Below, one piece after another: positions 1-9,229 of a stretch of DNA of 64,000 bases. Origin of the DNA: Campylobacterales bacterium (GTDB lineage Bacteria; Campylobacterota; Campylobacteria; Campylobacterales; Sulfurimonadaceae); NCBI GenBank assembly GCA_024280035.1, contig JAJRQV010000063.1, positions 1 to 64,000 on the forward strand, read 5' to 3'. Position 1 is the stretch's first letter. Every line of letters starts with the position of its first letter. The notes under the pieces are model-generated. The model worked only from the letters and a program-made list of their open reading frames with translations. It did not search any database and was not told the origin of the DNA. The position numbers were made by a program, and so were the translations under genes.

Positions 1-515
1 TCAACAGGACTTACTGTTTCATTTCCTACTGCAGTAGTAAAGATAGTATTTTGAGAAAGCCCTTCTTCTAAAGGATCATATCTATTCACCCTGCTAATTC
101 TTACATTTTCACTTCCTAAGCCTTTAGCAAAAGCATTCCCATGATCCTCACCACTTCCAATATAAGCATCTCCAATATTTTCTGAAGTTCCTACTATATT
201 ATCCCCTGCTTCAGTATCATCTAATTTAGAAATATCTCCATCTTCAACAGCATTAACATCTTTAACACTCACATCATCTGCATCAAAGGCTTTTTTCTCA
301 TATATTGTCTCATCTATCATTACCGTACGTTGCCCATCTATCATAACAACATTACCATTACTCATAACAATCTCTAATTGTGCCCCATCAGAACTCTCGA
401 TTAAATCATTCTTATCAATTTGTGAAAATATCCCCAACTCAACTACTTCACCATTAATCTTAGTTAAAGTCGCATTCCCCGTTTGTTTTGAAATATATCC
501 AATTACATTTGACAT
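1..515 (-). CDS. Retention-module adhesin, N-terminal fragment (LapA/BapA-like)
   Basis: The minus frame opens at ATG 513-515 behind an AAGGA ribosome site and runs off the left edge, giving about 171 residues. Residues 15-75 resemble the retention module of giant type I-secreted adhesins: a small beta-rich domain (GEVVELG, DGAQLEIVMSNG, TVMIDET) that plugs the outer-membrane exporter and keeps the adhesin on the surface. No signal peptide is visible, as expected for type I secretion. Residues 101-104 are TEAG, at the distance from the N-terminus where LapG substrates usually carry TAAG. An acidic Asp/Glu/Gly-rich linker follows. The divergent neighbours are LapG- and LapD-like genes, which supports a regulated surface adhesin. 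The repeat region and secretion genes lie outside the window. The family call is firm from context and pattern; total size is unknown. Confidence 0.75.
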   Translation of the reverse strand, partial: MSNVIGYISKQTGNATLTKINGEVVELGIFSQIDKNDLIESSDGAQLEIVMSNGNVVMIDGQRTVMIDETIYEKKAFDADDVSVKDVNAVEDGDISKLDDTEAGDNIVGTSENIGDAYIGSGEDHGNAFAKGLGSENVRISRVNRYDPLEEGLSQNTIFTTAVGNETVSPV

Positions 516-763: not shown

Positions 764-1381
764 ATGTACTTATTAAGATTAATAATTCTAATACTTTTTG
801 CTACACATATATCTGCTTTTAATGGGGGTCCTATTCCTGAAAAAGTAATGAAAAAAGCTGAACGAAAGTATGGTGGTCTCGTTGTTAGCCGCTTTCTTGA
901 ATATAATACACTACTAGAAAATTCTAAACACTTTTCTCTGCATCAAAAACTTCAAAGTGTTAATAATTTTTTCAATAAAATTCCTTTTAAAAGCGATGTT
1001 AAAAATTGGAAAACAGATGATTATTGGGCAACACCCCTAGAATTTTTAGCACGCTACAAAGGTGACAGCGAAGATTATGTTATTGCAAAGTATTTTGCTT
1101 TAAAAACAATGGGAGTAGATACACAAAAACTCTATTTTACTTATGTAAACTCTAAAAAATTCAAACGCCCCCATATGGTATTAAGCTATTTTATAACAGT
1201 AGATTCAGATCCCTTTATCTTAGACAATATTAATCCTGAAATATTACCCGCATCTCAAAGGGATGATTTAACCCCTATTTATAACTTCAATCCAACCATA
1301 AACACACAAGATGAATCGCAAGCAACAACCCATAAAAATTGGAAAAAACTCTATAAACGTGTTAAAAGGAATAAATTATGA
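764..1381 (+). CDS. lapG: LapG-family periplasmic cysteine-protease homologue, catalytic Cys replaced by Ser
   Basis: This 205-residue protein has a signal peptide (residues 1-18) and the bacterial transglutaminase-like fold of the LapG (peptidase C93) family. In the family, LapG cuts the retention module and releases the adhesin when c-di-GMP is low. DYWATPLEFL (86-95), KYFALKTMGV (109-118), HMVLSYF (137-143) and LDNINPEILPASQR (153-166) match well. The motif normally written GDCEDY reads GDSEDY here, so the nucleophile position is Ser102 (codon AGC), while His137 and Asp154 are kept. The neighbouring acidic residues Asp101, Glu103 and Asp104, in the calcium-binding area of the family, are also present. 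The stop overlaps the LapD-like start by four bases (ATGA), so the two are co-translated. Family membership is sure; protease activity is doubtful unless Ser can serve or the base is wrong. Confidence 0.85.
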   Translation: MYLLRLIILILFATHISAFNGGPIPEKVMKKAERKYGGLVVSRFLEYNTLLENSKHFSLHQKLQSVNNFFNKIPFKSDVKNWKTDDYWATPLEFLARYKGDSEDYVIAKYFALKTMGVDTQKLYFTYVNSKKFKRPHMVLSYFITVDSDPFILDNINPEILPASQRDDLTPIYNFNPTINTQDESQATTHKNWKKLYKRVKRNKL

Positions 1382-3288
1382 ACTTATATAAACAGATATC
1401 ACTTATCATGTCACTTTTTTTACTTTTTGTTCTTGTCTCAGTAATGAGCTATAACTTTCAATCCGCTAAAAAATATGCTCAAGAAGAGTTAGCTAACTCT
1501 ACACAAAATACAGCAACGTATTTGAGTATCTCCTTAGGTAAAACAGGGGCTGAAACTTCTGAAATGTCAACCATGATTAATGCTGTTTTTGATAGTGGAA
1601 ATTTTCAAGAAATACGTCTTTTAGATACCCATAAAAAAGTGATTTTTCAACGTAATAATTCTGAAGATCATATCAAAGTACCCCAATGGTTTACCTCTAT
1701 GTATGAACTTAAAACACCCCATTCAACGGCAACTATCTCTTCAGGTTGGAAACTGGTGGGAACAGTGACTGTTGTACCCATGCTGGACAATACCCATCTA
1801 AAGCTTTATAACAATTTTCTTTCACTTTTAGAAAGTTTTTTCTTTTTCTCACTCATAGCATTTACACTTTTATTCTTTTTATTAAGACTTTTGTTGGCTT
1901 CTTTAAGAAAAATGACGGAACAAGCTGAGGCTGTGAGTAATAATAATTTTATTATTAACCAAGACATACCTTCTACTACAGAGTTTAAAGAGGTAACACT
2001 TGCTATGAACAAGATGGTAACAAAGGTTAAAAATATTTTTGAAAAAGAGGCTAATTCTGCTAAAGAGTATCATAAACTACTCTATACTGATGCGCTCACA
2101 GGCTTAGGCAATAGAAACTATTTCGAATTAAAACTCAATGAGTTTATTATCTCTGAAGAGATAGAATCTAAGGGTGTTATTTTAAATATATTTTTAGAAG
2201 GTATCTCCTATGCTAATAAAAGTATTGGTCACGAAAAAGTAGATGCTCTTTTATACGAACTTTGCTCTGTTATAAAACAACAGGTTCAAAAAGAGGAAAA
2301 TACTGTTATTGCGCGTTTAGATGGAACAAAAACATCTATTATATTTACAAATAGACAAAAAGAAGATATTGAAGAGATTTCAAAAGAGATTTTAACACAG
2401 GCTATTGTTTTACTTGAAAAACTAAATCTGAATGCAGACAAATGTTGTATTAAAATCACACAACTAAGATATGGTTCAAATGATAATGTTTCATCTCTTT
2501 TAAACCAGATAGAAAAATCTTTTTCACTCACTAAGAAAAACACTATCTTTTTTATAAACAGTAATACTGAAACAAGCATTAATATCGGTACAGAACTTAT
2601 TAAGAGCAGACTAAATGCCCATGCAGTTTCTCTAGCGATGCAAGATGTTTATGATATTCATCAAAATATTTTACATGCTGAAGCCTATGTAAGACTTTAT
2701 GATGAAAATAAAAATCTATTTGAAGCCAGAGACTTTCTTCCCATTATACAAGCACATAATCTAGGTGTTCAACTTGATAAAAATGTTATCAATCATGCCT
2801 TAAAAATATCTGCTTCAAGCAGCTCAGAAATAGCCATTAACCTCTCTCTTGATTTTCTTCAAGACGCCTCTGCCATACAGTGGTTAAAAGAGAGACTACG
2901 CACCCAAGGCAGAACAAAAGTCTTTAACTTTGAGGTTTCTAATCATGTCCTTTTACATTCAATTGCACAAGCAAACTATCTCTCGACTATGCTTCGTGAG
3001 ATGGGTCATAATTTTGCTATAGATAGGTTTAGTATTGATGAAAACAGTAATCTCAATTATCTTCAAATGATTCAACCTGCGTATTTAAAGATAGACAGTT
3101 GTTATCTGCGTGATATGTTAAAAGATGAAAATGGTGTAACCAATCCTGCCTTACAAATTATTACAGAAAGTATTGATGCTAAAATCATTGCAACCAATAT
3201 TGAAAATAGTGAAATGAAAGGATTTTTACAAAAGGCAGGAATTAAGTATTTTCAAGGAAGTTATTTAGGAGAAGTACGCCTAGTTTAA
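1378..3288 (+). CDS. lapD: LapD-like inner-membrane c-di-GMP receptor (degenerate GGDEF-EAL)
   Basis: This 636-residue protein has a TM helix at 8-24, a periplasmic domain at about 25-148, a second TM at about 150-174, a HAMP-like segment, a GGDEF domain (from YTDALTGLGNRNYF at 236) and an EAL domain from about 410. Both catalytic motifs are degenerate: LDGTK (314-318) stands where GGDEF would be, and EAYVRL (435-440) replaces EALLR. It should therefore bind c-di-GMP rather than make or break it. The periplasmic part contains GW (Trp124) in a context like the LapD tryptophan that docks LapG. In the known system, c-di-GMP-bound LapD holds LapG away from the adhesin. Position directly behind the LapG-like gene and opposite the adhesin supports this role. 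Confidence 0.85.
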   Translation: MNLYKQISLIMSLFLLFVLVSVMSYNFQSAKKYAQEELANSTQNTATYLSISLGKTGAETSEMSTMINAVFDSGNFQEIRLLDTHKKVIFQRNNSEDHIKVPQWFTSMYELKTPHSTATISSGWKLVGTVTVVPMLDNTHLKLYNNFLSLLESFFFFSLIAFTLLFFLLRLLLASLRKMTEQAEAVSNNNFIINQDIPSTTEFKEVTLAMNKMVTKVKNIFEKEANSAKEYHKLLYTDALTGLGNRNYFELKLNEFIISEEIESKGVILNIFLEGISYANKSIGHEKVDALLYELCSVIKQQVQKEENTVIARLDGTKTSIIFTNRQKEDIEEISKEILTQAIVLLEKLNLNADKCCIKITQLRYGSNDNVSSLLNQIEKSFSLTKKNTIFFINSNTETSINIGTELIKSRLNAHAVSLAMQDVYDIHQNILHAEAYVRLYDENKNLFEARDFLPIIQAHNLGVQLDKNVINHALKISASSSSEIAINLSLDFLQDASAIQWLKERLRTQGRTKVFNFEVSNHVLLHSIAQANYLSTMLREMGHNFAIDRFSIDENSNLNYLQMIQPAYLKIDSCYLRDMLKDENGVTNPALQIITESIDAKIIATNIENSEMKGFLQKAGIKYFQGSYLGEVRLV

Positions 3289-3298
3289 GCCCTCTTCT

Positions 3299-3961
3299 TT
3301 AAATTTTTGCATTCCAACCATGCCCTTGAATCACATCTTGTTTATCAATTTTAAGCGATAAATCAGGATTCATATTCATATGAAAAATTCTATCTTGCCA
3401 GTTTCCATCTTGAAGATAGTACCGCATATCACTCACTTCCATTAACTTTGCAGGGTTCCACTGTTTATCTGTTTTTACAACATAAGTTACTGTATTAAAA
3501 AAGTCCTGACTCTCCTCATCCAGTTGATATTTAAGCTTAATATGAATATCAGAATATATATTTTTATCAGTGTTGTACTGGGCTTGAATAAGACAGTTTT
3601 TTGATTTATGTGTACAATAGCGCTGAATTTTTCTACGCTCTTTCTCATATCTATTTTCAAGACTTAGCATTTGTGCAGAAATTTCTTCAGGTGATTTATC
3701 TTGAATAAAAAGAAAACGTTCTCTAACTACTTTATCTTGTCCAATCATGGTAGTAATAATATCTGTGTACATTACTTTAATACGCTCATCTAGAAGATAT
3801 TTAGCTCTTTTATCTGCTTGCTCTAACAAATTTTCCTTTTTAACAACAGCCTTTTTATTAGTATTCATAATGTCAAGAAAGGCGAGATTCCCATTTATAT
3901 ATAAAACACTGACACCTATTATAATTACACCCAAGAGTGTTCCTAAAATTGCTTTTATCAT
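3299..3961 (-). CDS. Hypothetical membrane-anchored protein
   Basis: I do not recognise this 220-residue protein. An N-terminal hydrophobic helix (residues 4-22) looks like an uncleaved anchor. Residues 35-125 are charged and helical (EKERRKIQRYC). The C-terminal third appears beta-rich and contains a YxVKTDKQWNP stretch that looks like a SnoaL/NTF2-type or Tim44-like fold, but this is a guess. Cys117 and Cys124 could form a disulfide if the domain is periplasmic. It is convergent with the LapD-like gene, ten bases away, and separated from serA by a 138-base gap with a terminator, so it is probably its own unit. Confidence 0.6.
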   Translation of the reverse strand: MIKAILGTLLGVIIIGVSVLYINGNLAFLDIMNTNKKAVVKKENLLEQADKRAKYLLDERIKVMYTDIITTMIGQDKVVRERFLFIQDKSPEEISAQMLSLENRYEKERRKIQRYCTHKSKNCLIQAQYNTDKNIYSDIHIKLKYQLDEESQDFFNTVTYVVKTDKQWNPAKLMEVSDMRYYLQDGNWQDRIFHMNMNPDLSLKIDKQDVIQGHGWNAKI

Positions 3962-4099: not shown

Positions 4100-5683
4100 T
4101 TAGATTTGTGCGTAATCTACGCTAATGCATGCCTCAAGCTCAGAAAGCTCTTTTAAAGTAGTTTTAGAGACAGTAGAGTCCGTAATAATCACTGCTAAGG
4201 CTTGGTCTGCATTTCGTCCAAGACGGAAATCAGAAATATTTACATCATGTTTTGCTAAGGTTGTTCCCACATGCCCAATTACACCCGGTACATCTGTATT
4301 TTTGAAAATAATAAGATTACCTTTTGGTTCAATATCTAAATCAAAACCATTAATATCAACAATACGTTGAACATCTTCAGCAAAAATAGTTGAACAGATA
4401 GAGGTCGCACCTTTTTCTGTTGTTACTTTTATAGTAATTTTGTTTTTATAAATACTTTTGTTTGCCTCTTCTTCAAAATCAAGAAGAACACCACGATCCT
4501 TAGCTGCATATTCTGCATTTACGTAGTTGATTTTATCGCCTAAAGATTCTGTTAATGCACCTACCGTTACAAATGTCATTAAAGATTTTAAGTAGGCTGC
4601 AATCTCACCTTGAGCAGTTACTTTAATAGACTTAATAGGAGCCTTATTAATCTGTGCTGCTAAAAAAGCTGTTTTTTGAGAAAGCTCTAAAAATGGTTTC
4701 ACAAAGGCAGGAATCTTATTTTCATCAATAGGAAGATTAAAGGCATTTTTAAACTCAATGCCTTTAGCTGCATTCAGTGCTTGTTCTGCTGCTTGCGTAC
4801 CAATATTGTACTGAGATTCAAAAGTATTTGCACCTAAGTGGGGTGAAACAACAATATTGTCTAAGTCAAGAAGTTTGTGCTCAATTGCGGGTTCTTTATT
4901 AAAAACATCAATCCCTGCAAAACGAATTTTTCCAGACTTTAAGTTATCATACAGAGCATCTTCATTATAAAGCCCACCACGAGCACAGTTAATTAAAACA
5001 ATGCCATCTTTCATCTTAGCCATCTCATCAACGTCTAACATGTTAAGTGTCTCTTTATTCTTAGGTGTATGAATAGTAATAATGTCACAATCTAAGATAT
5101 CTTGGAAGTTAGTTGTGTACTCCATTCCAAGATCTGTTGCCTTAGATGATGGAACATAAGGGTCATAAGCAACCACGTCCATTTCAAAAGCTTTTGCACG
5201 AATAGCAATACGTGAACCAATGTTACCAAAACCAATAACACCTAGTTTTTTACCCTTAAGCTCATAACCGTACCATTTTTCACGCTTCCAGATTCTCTGA
5301 TTTTTAAGATGGTCATGAGAGTAAGGAAACATTCTCATACATGAAAGCATGTGTGCCATAGTTAGCTCAACTGCCGCAATAGTATTTGCTGTAGGTACAT
5401 TCATAACAATAATACCTTCTTTAGAACAGCCATCAATGTCTACATTATCAACACCTACACCTGCACGAACAATAGCTTTCATCTGCTTTGCAGCATTAAT
5501 AAATTTTTCATCTACATCTGTTGAAGAGCGAGTAATAGCAACGTCTGCATCTTTAATCACATCTAAAAGTGCTGTTTTGTCAATATCTGCAGCAAATACA
5601 AACTCAATTTGCTCATCATTTTTAAGCATATCCAGACCCGCTTGGTGAATGTGGTCACACACTACTACTTTAGGCTTACTCAT
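4100..5683 (-). CDS. serA: D-3-phosphoglycerate dehydrogenase
   Basis: It catalyses the first step of serine synthesis, NAD-dependent oxidation of 3-phosphoglycerate in the cytoplasm. The 527-residue length fits the long form with an intervening domain and a C-terminal ACT domain. Visible marks are RAGVGVDNVD (73-82), the NAD-binding GVIGFGNIGSRIA, the INCARGG segment with the catalytic Arg region, and PHLGANT with the catalytic His. The ACT domain (GNLIIFKNTDVPGVIGHVG onward) suggests serine feedback. The start follows an AAGGA site. It follows the 160-residue protein in the same direction, the order found in Campylobacter. It is uninterrupted, unlike several neighbours. Confidence 0.97.
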   Translation of the reverse strand: MSKPKVVVCDHIHQAGLDMLKNDEQIEFVFAADIDKTALLDVIKDADVAITRSSTDVDEKFINAAKQMKAIVRAGVGVDNVDIDGCSKEGIIVMNVPTANTIAAVELTMAHMLSCMRMFPYSHDHLKNQRIWKREKWYGYELKGKKLGVIGFGNIGSRIAIRAKAFEMDVVAYDPYVPSSKATDLGMEYTTNFQDILDCDIITIHTPKNKETLNMLDVDEMAKMKDGIVLINCARGGLYNEDALYDNLKSGKIRFAGIDVFNKEPAIEHKLLDLDNIVVSPHLGANTFESQYNIGTQAAEQALNAAKGIEFKNAFNLPIDENKIPAFVKPFLELSQKTAFLAAQINKAPIKSIKVTAQGEIAAYLKSLMTFVTVGALTESLGDKINYVNAEYAAKDRGVLLDFEEEANKSIYKNKITIKVTTEKGATSICSTIFAEDVQRIVDINGFDLDIEPKGNLIIFKNTDVPGVIGHVGTTLAKHDVNISDFRLGRNADQALAVIITDSTVSKTTLKELSELEACISVDYAQI

Positions 5684-5741
5684 AGTTATATTCCTTAATA
5701 AATAATATTAAAATTGCTTCTAAAAGCATTTTGAATAACAC

Positions 5742-6224
5742 TTATCTAACGATCTTAATTATTTGTGCATTTATAGCATAATTTTTTAGTGTTTTTACTA
5801 TATTTTCGAGTTGTTTTACATTTTGTGAGTAGATTACAAGCTTCATATCATCACGTTGTTGTTCAAACATATATTTTGTTTTATATTGGTGTAAAACTTC
5901 TTTTAAACAGTAGAGCTGATAAGGGTCGAGATCACCGGCTTTTAATTGATAAATCGTTGTTTTCTTTGGAGGATCTTTCAAGTCTACTTCAACAAAGATT
6001 TCAGTTACAGGATAAAAATAACCCTCTTGTTCATGTTTAGAAAAACGTTCTATCCATTTCTCTTTACTTACAATTGAGGGAATATTTTGGGCTTTGGGGA
6101 TATCTGCCTTATCGGCATAAATACTTGCATCACTTCGGTTAACTTGAACCAAAAAGATAACCAAAAAGATGGCAACTCCACCTGCAATTGCAGGGAAAAG
6201 CCATTTTGCAAGCATCGTGTGCAT
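5742..6224 (-). CDS. Membrane-anchored periplasmic protein between rpsA and serA
   Basis: This 160-residue protein of unknown function begins with a hydrophobic helix (residues 8-27) and then a soluble domain, probably periplasmic. Residues 95-160 alternate beta and helix (LYCLKEVLHQYK, MKLVIYSQNVKQLENIVKTLKNY), somewhat like a SPOR-type repeat fold, though I cannot confirm that. The gene lies nine bases after rpsA and 58 before serA, and a similar small periplasmic protein occupies this slot in Campylobacter. Either ATG (residue 1 or 4) could be the start; no strong ribosome site decides it. Confidence 0.75.
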   Translation of the reverse strand: MHTMLAKWLFPAIAGGVAIFLVIFLVQVNRSDASIYADKADIPKAQNIPSIVSKEKWIERFSKHEQEGYFYPVTEIFVEVDLKDPPKKTTIYQLKAGDLDPYQLYCLKEVLHQYKTKYMFEQQRDDMKLVIYSQNVKQLENIVKTLKNYAINAQIIKIVR

Positions 6225-6233
6225 TTTAAAGGA

Positions 6234-7895
6234 TTACTTTAATTGGTCTTTTATAAGATCACCTAAAGAGTTTCCACCATCATCATTTTGTGCATTAACT
6301 GCATCTAAAGCAACCTTGTCTTCAAGACGTTGAAGCTTTTTAACAGAAAGACGAATACGATCACGTTTTGTGTCAATTACAGCAATTGCTGCTTTAATTT
6401 CATCACCAGCATTTAACTCTTCAGCTACTAAAGGCTCAAGGTCTTCGTTACGAATAAGTGCGTCCATATCACCTTCAAGTGAAACAAATACACCGAAGTC
6501 TTTAACATCACGTACCTTACCAGTAACAATTTCGTTAACTGAGTGTTCTTTAGCAAATTTATCAACAGGAGACTCAAGAAGTGCCTTACGATTAAGAGAA
6601 ATTTTCTCTTCTTCGAAGTTAATTTTAACAATCTTAACTTCTACTTCGTCACCCACTTTATAAATTTCTTTTGCTTTTGAAGACTTGTCCCAAGTACAGT
6701 CTTGATTATGTAAAAGACCTTCAACCGAACCGATACGTACAAATGCACCAAAATCAGTCAGTGTTGTTACTATACCTGTAACAATATCACCCTCACGTGA
6801 AGTTTTGATAAATTCATCAAAAGGTTTAGCAAGAAGACGTTTAAGAGATACACGTAATTTGTGTTTTTTAGGATCAATTTCGATTACTTCAACATCAATT
6901 TCTTGACCAACTTCTAGGTAATCTTTTGGAGATTTAATGTTTTTGTCCCAAGTGATCTCAGAAACATGTAAGAAACCTTCAATATCATTTCCTAAGTCAA
7001 CAAATACACCATAAGGTTCAACATTAGAAACAGTTACAGTAATGGTATCGCCTTCATCTAATTCAGACTCAACTTCTTCCCATGGATCAGACATAACAGC
7101 CTTGATTGAAAGAGAAAGGTGACGTTTGTCTTTATCATAAGAGATAGCCTTACATGCAACTGTATCGCCTTCTTTATAATATTTAGAAGGGTTAACAGGA
7201 CCCTTGTAAGAAATTTCATTGTAGTGAACAAGGCCATCAACACCACCAACATCTACGAACATACCGTATGAAGTGATTTTTTTGATAGTACCTTCAACAA
7301 CAACATCTTCTTCCATAAGAGCATCAATGATCTGTTTACGTTTTTTACGATCTTCATTAAGAAGTTTACGACGTGAAAGAACGATTGAAGAATCACCCTC
7401 TTCAATTTTAATTACAGCAGCTTTAACCTTACGACCGATAACATTATCATCATCTTTAAGTGCTGCAAGTGACTTAGGCATAAAGAAAGATACACCATCA
7501 AGTTCTAATACATATCCACCACGGTTTTTCTTTGTTACCGTTGCTTCAACGATTAACTCTTCATAATCATCTTTATGCGCTTTAATAAACTCTAAAGTTT
7601 TAAGTTGTTCAATAACTTTTTTATGAGAGATCTTCGGACGTTCGTCACGGTGACCTGTAATCATTACCTGAATAGTGTCATTTACACTATATTTCATCTC
7701 ACCGTTTTCATCTTGAAGTTCATTAAGGTATAAAATACCCTCTTTTTTCTCACCCACATCTACGAGTGCTCTGTCTTCTTGAATTTCTACGATTACACCA
7801 TCAGTAATACGATTCGTCTCTTCAGAACGTTTTTCTGATGCTTCAAACATCGCTGCAAAGTTTTCTTATTCCATTGGTTCGAGCTCTTGAGCCAT
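6234..7895 (-). CDS. rpsA: 30S ribosomal protein S1, interrupted by an in-frame TAA at codon 10
   Basis: S1 helps load mRNA on the 30S subunit. Several S1/OB RNA-binding repeats are visible (GMFVDVGGVDGLVHYNEIS, GVFVDLGNDIEGFLHVSEI, GAFVRIGSVEGLLHNQD, GVFVSLEGDMDALIRNED). The longest uninterrupted ORF starts at 7850, but that ATG has no ribosome site. The ATG at 7893-7895 has AAGGG upstream, and its frame reads MAQELEPME, then TAA (7866-7868), then ENFAAMFEAS. I therefore take 7895 as the true start and the TAA as a lesion, most simply a CAA or GAA change. Total is about 553 codons. S1 should be essential, so a real stop here is unlikely. Confidence 0.93.
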
Positions 7896-7914
7896 ACAAA
7901 TATCCCTTGTTTGC

Positions 7915-7933
7915 GGAGGTTTTTAAGACCTCC
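7915..7933 (-). promoter_or_regulatory. Hairpin in the rpsA leader
   Basis: GGAGGT and ACCTCC pair across a seven-base loop, 20 bases upstream of the rpsA start and inside the inferred leader. The minus-strand RNA exposes an SD-like GGAGGU in the stem. S1 represses its own translation in other bacteria, so this may be a regulatory leader; it could also be simple decoration. Confidence 0.4.
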
Positions 7934-7951
7934 AAATATAAAAATTTGCAA

Positions 7952-7957
7952 ATTATA
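7952..7957 (-). promoter_or_regulatory. Putative -10 element of rpsA
   Basis: TATAAT on the minus strand (context GCTATAATTTG) about 57 bases before the proposed rpsA start. It implies a leader of roughly 50 bases containing the hairpin at 7915-7933. No -35 match is obvious. Confidence 0.5.
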
Positions 7958-8122
7958 GCTAAAAGTACCTTGGTCTATCTTTATAATTTGTAAAATTTAT
8001 GTAAGTTATAAGGAGTAAATTCAGAATTGTCTAAAATTTTATACAATTTTTAACCGTATTAGTTAAGCTTTGTTTTTATTTTCATAAGATAATATAAAGC
8101 AACTCAATTATAAAGGTAAATT

Positions 8123-9229
8123 ATGCTGAGTGTGAAAGATTTACATAAATTTTCAAAAGAACTTAATGTTTTATATGTTGAAGATGATGACAATTTAAGA
8201 GAAGAGACCCAATCTCTTCTTATCACTCTTTTTCAAAGTATCACTACGGCAATAGATGGAGAGCATGGTCTACAGGAGTATAATCAAAACTTTTACGATC
8301 TTGTTATTAGTGATGTAAATATGCCCCGTATGAATGGTATTGAGATGTGTAAAAGTATTAAGGAGATTAATCCTGAACAAAAAATTCTTATTGTTTCGGC
8401 ACATGATGAGTCAGAAATATTAATGAGCCTTATTAAAACAGGAGCAAGTGGTTTTATCTTAAAACCCATGACCTTAGATAATTTAGTTATCTCTCTTTAT
8501 CCTGTTTGTCGAGATGCTCAAACTCAAAAAATGAATATTCAACTGGTTAATGAACTTAATGAAAAAAACAGACTTTTAGAAAAACAGAATCATGAGTTAA
8601 GAGCACTGAGTAATACCATTGAAACGAAACACTTCCAGTTGGCACAAGTTTTAAAAGAGTGTGAACCTGAAGAAGAAACACCTACACAAAACACCAATAA
8701 AGAAGAACCACTTCCTTCAACAGACAATACTCTTTTAAATGATTATTTTGAAAATGATACCGATGAGGGAGAAGAAAATATTCTTCTTTTAAGTGAACAT
8801 TGTGAAGATCTGAGTGAGATTTTTTCTGATATACCAGAAATTATTGCCCGTTATATTAATCACCCCAATAAGCATGAGATAGAACTTATTACAAAAAACC
8901 TTTCAAGAGCAGCCTCTGTTCTTGTTTTTTATACACCCTACCTTGATATTATCGCCTCTAGTTTTTCAGAACTAGCCACAGCAATGACGGAAAACACAGA
9001 CGAATTTATTGAACTGATGACACGTGATCCACAAAGTATTCTTATGCTTTTTGATGCGGTAAGTTCTGATATAGAAAGGTATATTGAAAGGTTTTCTGTT
9101 GAATCATTAGCAATGAAGAATATTCATCATATTCATGAACCCACTGCCTTAAGTATTCAACAAATTATTACACTTTTTGTTCCCCAAGAAGAGAGTGAAG
9201 TCGAAACCGACGATATTTTTGATTTTTGA
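8123..9229 (+). CDS. Response regulator with receiver domain and unassigned C-terminal domain
   Basis: Residues 14-125 form a CheY-like receiver: acidic pocket VEDDD (19-23), phosphoacceptor Asp64 in SDVNMPRMNG, Ser92 and Lys114 (LKPM). A helical, coiled-coil-like linker (128-160) and a very acidic stretch follow. Residues 210-340 are helical and match no output domain I recognise; there is no helix-turn-helix, GGDEF, EAL, HD-GYP or kinase motif. It may act through protein contacts. No histidine kinase is adjacent. It is a plus-strand gene inside an otherwise minus-strand housekeeping run, which suggests later insertion or a private promoter. The downstream heptamer repeat marks the convergent junction with ispH. 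Confidence 0.8.
   Translation: MLSVKDLHKFSKELNVLYVEDDDNLREETQSLLITLFQSITTAIDGEHGLQEYNQNFYDLVISDVNMPRMNGIEMCKSIKEINPEQKILIVSAHDESEILMSLIKTGASGFILKPMTLDNLVISLYPVCRDAQTQKMNIQLVNELNEKNRLLEKQNHELRALSNTIETKHFQLAQVLKECEPEEETPTQNTNKEEPLPSTDNTLLNDYFENDTDEGEENILLLSEHCEDLSEIFSDIPEIIARYINHPNKHEIELITKNLSRAASVLVFYTPYLDIIASSFSELATAMTENTDEFIELMTRDPQSILMLFDAVSSDIERYIERFSVESLAMKNIHHIHEPTALSIQQIITLFVPQEESEVETDDIFDF

Follow-up and report, generated by a model that had tools for sequence, protein, structure and literature searches.

The LapG-LapD pair is the standard model of c-di-GMP control of attachment, and LapG is treated in it as a cysteine protease by definition. What, then, is the role of a LapG homologue that carries a serine in place of its catalytic cysteine and is kept beside an intact LapD-like receptor? 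The question is raised by a contig (C66) of the 2.5 Mb draft genome of a Campylobacterales bacterium (G000), of which we analyzed a stretch of 64,000 nucleotides from the first base onward, called the window below. The genes and residues concerned are as follows.

764 to 1381, plus strand: Ser-type LapG homologue of 205 aa, matching PF06035 at 51.2 bits, with a predicted LapG fold and orthologues in four other species of the genus.
1067 to 1069, plus strand: codon 102, AGC (Ser) in the window sequence, at the nucleophile position.
1172 to 1174, plus strand: codon 137, CAT, the His of the triad, invariant in 77 aligned LapGs.
1223 to 1225, plus strand: codon 154, GAC, the Asp of the triad, invariant in the same 77 LapGs.
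1378 to 3288, plus strand: LapD-like c-di-GMP receptor of 636 aa, with LapD_MoxY_N (102.7 bits), EAL (108.6) and GGDEF (46.8), all above cut-off.

In a profile search, the product of the first of these genes matches the Peptidase_C93 family (PF06035) well above the cut-off of 27 bits. It misses the NCBIfam LapG equivalog (165 against a cut-off of 320), and so does the Cys paralogue (187). A sequence-only reading of this DNA had proposed that the GDCEDY motif is changed to GDSEDY through an AGC codon, that His137 and Asp154 are kept, and that the neighboring LapD-like receptor is intact. All three statements were confirmed, as was its remark that AGC is not explicable by C-to-T changes. GDSEDY occupies residues 100-105, and Ser102 replaces the Cys of the C-H-D triad, as it does in 5/5 orthologues. 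The acidic residues D101 and E103 beside the nucleophile are invariant in the 77 aligned sequences together with the triad His and Asp; they match by position D316 and E318 of DvhG, which are needed for calcium (PMC13090378). An AlphaFold2 model of the window LapG, built with 77 homologues, reached a pLDDT of 93.9 and a pTM of 0.87. Its best Foldseek match in the PDB is 4u65_E (E 3e-16), followed here by 4fgq (E 5e-14); 4u65 is P. fluorescens LapG bound to a LapD periplasmic domain, and 4fgo, 4fgp and 4fgq are Legionella LapG. A transglutaminase-like LapG fold is thus predicted from the model and from Foldseek.

The start of lapD overlaps the stop of lapG (ATGA), and its product has the LapD architecture, a LapD_MoxY_N periplasmic domain with a GW loop followed by GGDEF-EAL. 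The LapG-binding GW loop is found at G123-W124 and is invariant in nine aligned LapDs, Ser- and Cys-paired, reading GWKL in the window LapD and GWNP in the other Ser-pair LapDs. A GWxQ loop has been reported for the P. fluorescens and Legionella receptors, the GW loop anchoring LapG (PMC4359373). The LapD of one relative (L145, G401:C67, 59-1315, minus strand) stops after ~405 aligned residues and has lost its EAL domain; its end lies within 60 bases of the contig end, which corresponds either to a true truncation or to a contig-end error.

Orthologues of the Ser-LapG, with ~65% identity to the window protein, are present in four other species of the genus (G399-G402). Position 102 is Ser in all five sequences, encoded by AGC in the window genome and by TCA or TCT in G399-G402, and His and Asp are intact in each. 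All of the ~100 other LapG loci that were read with a GDxEDY motif have Cys. When 397 Campylobacterota genomes were scanned for the exact pattern GDSED[YF] in both Ser codon classes, and 228 genomes of the family in TCN codons, Ser turned up only in the genus and in one distant tandem copy (G375); such a scan detects close motif variants only, and non-Ser substitutions at position 102 would escape it. Sequencing or assembly error at codon 102 was ruled out, as Ser is common to five separate assemblies with differing codons, these separately assembled genomes standing in for raw reads. The doubt that the sequence-only reading had left over this codon was settled by the alignment with related Campylobacterota LapGs that it had called for, with Ser conserved in five species of the genus.

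The distant copy belongs to an Arcobacter-like genome (L180, G375:C1:1505000-1523000), where tandem LapG genes (7817-8488 and 7134-7781, minus strand) stand beside LapD. One copy is Ser and decaying, the other is Cys, and the Ser copy lies between an MFS-like gene and the Cys-LapG/LapD pair. It is a second, independent Cys-to-Ser event. Another family genome (L005, G390:C26:104655-105682) also has two tandem LapG genes, both Cys.

The five Ser sequences group in a single clade (support 100/99) of a maximum-likelihood tree built from 103 LapGs. Cys-LapGs are its sisters and its topology is ((G402,G401),(G000,(G400,G399))), so that TCN codons flank the AGC-bearing window sequence on both sides. 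The codon history is either a Ser (TCT) ancestor with a later class switch in the window lineage, or a repeated origin of Ser from TGY. For the switch to AGC, two codon positions, the first and the second, would have to change, via a non-Ser intermediate or in tandem, and counting replacement changes fails to separate the single-ancestor history from the multiple-origin one. Both histories mean that position 102 was held at, or driven to, Ser.

This pattern bears on two readings of the gene. We favor a pseudoprotease that stays a ligand of LapD, yet a pure binder should allow Ala, Thr or Gly at position 102 and drift at the His, Asp and calcium-site residues, all of which are fixed, Ser being encoded by TCN and by AGC, across a synonymous divergence that is largely saturated. 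The main rival is a working serine peptidase or hydrolase under LapD control, in which Ser102 would act as the nucleophile of an otherwise intact triad and calcium site, on the same or a changed substrate. No residue other than Ser occurs at position 102 in the clade, and Ser has been maintained across both codon classes; D101 and E103 on either side of it are invariant, as are His137 and Asp154, and the calcium-site residues are intact, as expected of an active enzyme. We nevertheless consider a working enzyme unlikely, for reasons that come mainly from its relatives and from its possible substrates and are given below.

The same alignments speak to another possibility, that the gene is a functionless duplicate of a Cys-LapG, either in decay or inactivated recently. 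In its favor, a Cys-LapG occurs at another locus in some genomes, several orthologues are relaxed at G117, and the pair is missing from one member, G403, in which neither LapG nor LapD was found. However, dN/dS among the five Ser-LapGs is ~0.1-0.2 (Nei-Gojobori; a rough value, as synonymous sites are saturated or high in most pairs), no Ser orthologue contains a stop, and their tip branches are similar to those of Cys-LapGs. Invariant columns among the Ser-LapGs amount to 105/206 of the alignment. We further considered the 40 columns, position 102 excluded, with a conservation of 90% or more among Cys-LapGs: the window protein keeps 39/40 and the orthologues 38-39/40, the departures being conservative or located at G117. 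True decay is seen in the G375 Ser copy, which keeps 30/40 of these columns and whose branch measures 1.48, compared with 0.13 for the Cys copy beside it. The Ser-LapG clade is under purifying selection. Set against the G375 copy, the dN/dS and column conservation of the Ser-LapG of the genus thus ruled out pseudogene decay, and the functionless-duplicate reading, largely refuted, is most improbable. The catalytic residue is lost, with the predicted fold and selection retained, as in a pseudoprotease.

Whether the pair serves an adhesin system can be approached from its surroundings, for which three further features of the window are needed.

4100 to 7850, minus strand: synteny anchors serA (4100-5683), an ORF (5742-6224) and rpsA (6234-7850), a gene order also found next to the Ser lapG-lapD of G402.
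1 to 515, minus strand: a large retention-module adhesin, truncated where the contig begins so that its N-terminal 171 aa are present, identified by alignment with retention modules of long repeat adhesins.
204 to 215, minus strand: TEAG at the place where LapG substrates have a [T/A/P]AAG cleavage site, from the alignment of adhesins.

The Ser lapG-lapD pair occupies one conserved place, with efp and dnaE on one side and either serA-ORF-rpsA (G402, window) or htpG (G399, G400) on the other. The adhesin gene takes the place of the efp side in the window genome. A 220 aa ORF between lapD and serA (3299-3961, minus strand) is absent from the matching G402 locus. The adhesin scores 18.6 bits against NCBIfam retention_LapA, below the cut-off of 50, and its assignment rests on the alignment with other adhesins; a first iterated profile of the retention module had drifted into EF-P proteins and was not used further. 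The adhesin is divergent from the Ser pair in the window and is not beside it in G399, G401 and G402.

A second operon of the same genome (G000:C73; L139, 1477-11853) encodes an outer membrane factor, a LapB-type exporter (TIGR03375, 913 bits), a membrane fusion protein, a LuxR-type regulator, a Cys-LapG and a LapD. It faces the C-terminal part of an adhesin gene truncated at the contig end, in an orientation fitting the other end of the window adhesin that starts at 515. We looked for shared end sequence between the window contig start and the C73 adhesin end and found none, and the joining of the two adhesin parts is unproven. In this operon, the LuxR-type regulator is split into two overlapping ORFs of 116 and 91 aa (L139, ~6415-6990); its G400 counterpart is one intact ORF of 190 aa (L142, 12646-13218), and the split corresponds to a frameshift or an assembly error.

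Profile searches found Cys-LapG, LapB-type exporter and retention-module adhesin together in G000, G400 and G402, and none of the three in the draft genomes of G399 and G401 (100% and 99% complete; all relatives are draft genomes), which keep Ser-LapG with LapD. PF05860, a marker of type Vb, CdrA-like substrates, had no match in the Ser-only genomes and none in the controls either. Because G399 and G401 keep the pair without the adhesin system, the adhesin machinery appears to be patchy and the Ser pair the more constant element of the genus.

These distributions weigh against two proposals. A permanently retained adhesin, one of the three options of the sequence-only reading, is unlikely, given that the window genome has a canonical Cys-LapG and LapD in an operon with a type I exporter and that the Ser pair persists in G399 and G401, where neither a retention-module adhesin nor a LapB-type exporter could be detected. 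Alternatively, the Ser-LapG could act as a dominant negative solely on the cell's own canonical Lap system, titrating LapD or masking the adhesin site and thereby reducing cutting by Cys-LapG. The divergent arrangement with the adhesin in the window and the Cys-LapG/LapD/type I exporter operon on another contig agree with such a role, and a non-cutting LapG would presumably still be able to bind. This dedicated role is nonetheless very improbable, as no Cys-LapG, exporter or adhesin was found in two genomes that keep the pair, and the adhesin does not adjoin it in three. It fits less well than the pseudoprotease, as does decay.

The cleavage site of the adhesin could be expected to bear on the serine enzyme, since the adjacent adhesin has TEAG and not TAAG. 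TEAG is found in G000 and G400, and TAAG in G402. TAAG predominates in ~66 retention modules taken from other genera of the family, in which TEAG (in at least five adhesins), TSAG, TASG and TGAG also recur. Co-adaptation of Ser-LapG and TEAG was dropped: TEAG occurs in adhesins outside the genus and G402 has TAAG, and therefore no coupling to Ser-LapG is claimed. The cleavage motif is more variable than the published [T/A/P]AAG at several loci (L163, L164, L209, L215, L221 and others); in LapA, cleavage is blocked by changing both alanines to arginine (PMC3032545). Further against a working enzyme, no retention-module substrate was detected in two Ser-LapG genomes, the C192S variant of HvyA, a member of the same BTLCP family, is non-functional in vivo (PMC4241560), and the papain-like SERA5, whose active-site Cys is replaced by Ser, has a non-enzymatic role and no detectable activity (PMC4671257). 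The specific proposal that a C-H-D lineage turned S-H-D as an active serine peptidase under LapD/c-di-GMP control, forming a serine-nucleophile branch of the BTLCPs, is accordingly improbable in our estimation, although it belongs to the main rival reading.

We therefore return to the pseudoprotease. It is favored because HvyA C192S is non-functional, because Cys-to-Ala changes kill LapG (C135A; PMC3032545) and DvhG (C317A; PMC13090378), and because LapG activates LapD, whose full activation needs c-di-GMP and LapG together (PMC5231407). As LapG is an activating input of LapD, a LapG that binds and does not cut would keep that input. On the other side, loss of function by Cys-to-Ser is known from HvyA, which is only distantly related, and not from LapG itself. 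The analysis shows that Cys has given way to Ser, that this Ser is conserved, that the fold (as predicted) and the partner gene are intact, and that the pair persists in genomes in which no adhesin machinery was found; from this we infer loss of activity, LapD binding and a signaling role. The window gene is thus probably a pseudoprotease that stays a periplasmic ligand of LapD, the Cys-to-Ser change silencing peptide-bond cleavage; among the options of the sequence-only reading, this one is best supported and a working serine variant ranks lower.

According to this model, a folded, LapD-coupled LapG would have lost peptide-bond cutting through the Cys-to-Ser change. At high c-di-GMP, LapD would bind the Ser-LapG via the retained GW loop, and this binding would push LapD into an activated dimer-of-dimers. 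At low c-di-GMP, the Ser-LapG would be freed and could sit on LapG substrate sites without cutting. Where an adhesin and a Cys-LapG are also encoded, the Ser-LapG may rival the active protease in binding LapD or the adhesin; where they are lacking, its sole role would be that of LapD partner.

The closest known systems share part of these features. LapG of P. fluorescens and L. pneumophila resembles the window protein in fold (4u65, 4fgo), triad His and Asp, acidic flanks and operon with LapD, but Ser replaces Cys here and adhesin and exporter are undetected in 2/5 carriers. HvyA of Caulobacter offers the matching engineered change, but it requires its Cys and regulates capsulation, without being described as a partner of LapD (PMC4241560). 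In Desulfovibrio, DvhG/DvhD also couples a LapG-like protease to a membrane c-di-GMP receptor controlling adhesin release; however, DvhG keeps Cys317 and is active, and DvhD has PAS and HD-GYP domains (PMC13090378). SERA5 of Plasmodium, compared from the literature only, is a natural Cys-to-Ser case in a cysteine-protease fold with Cys-type paralogues, but belongs to another family, in a eukaryote, without a second-messenger receptor partner (PMC4671257, PMC5500368). The papers searched contain no mention of LapG together with pseudoprotease, or of BTLCP together with pseudoenzyme.

Here a genus has fixed a Cys-to-Ser change and kept nearly all else, the pair persisting even where no adhesin or exporter was found. 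One of two things would follow: LapG-like proteins also act, in a second role without proteolysis, as ligands of LapD, or the fold can work with serine.
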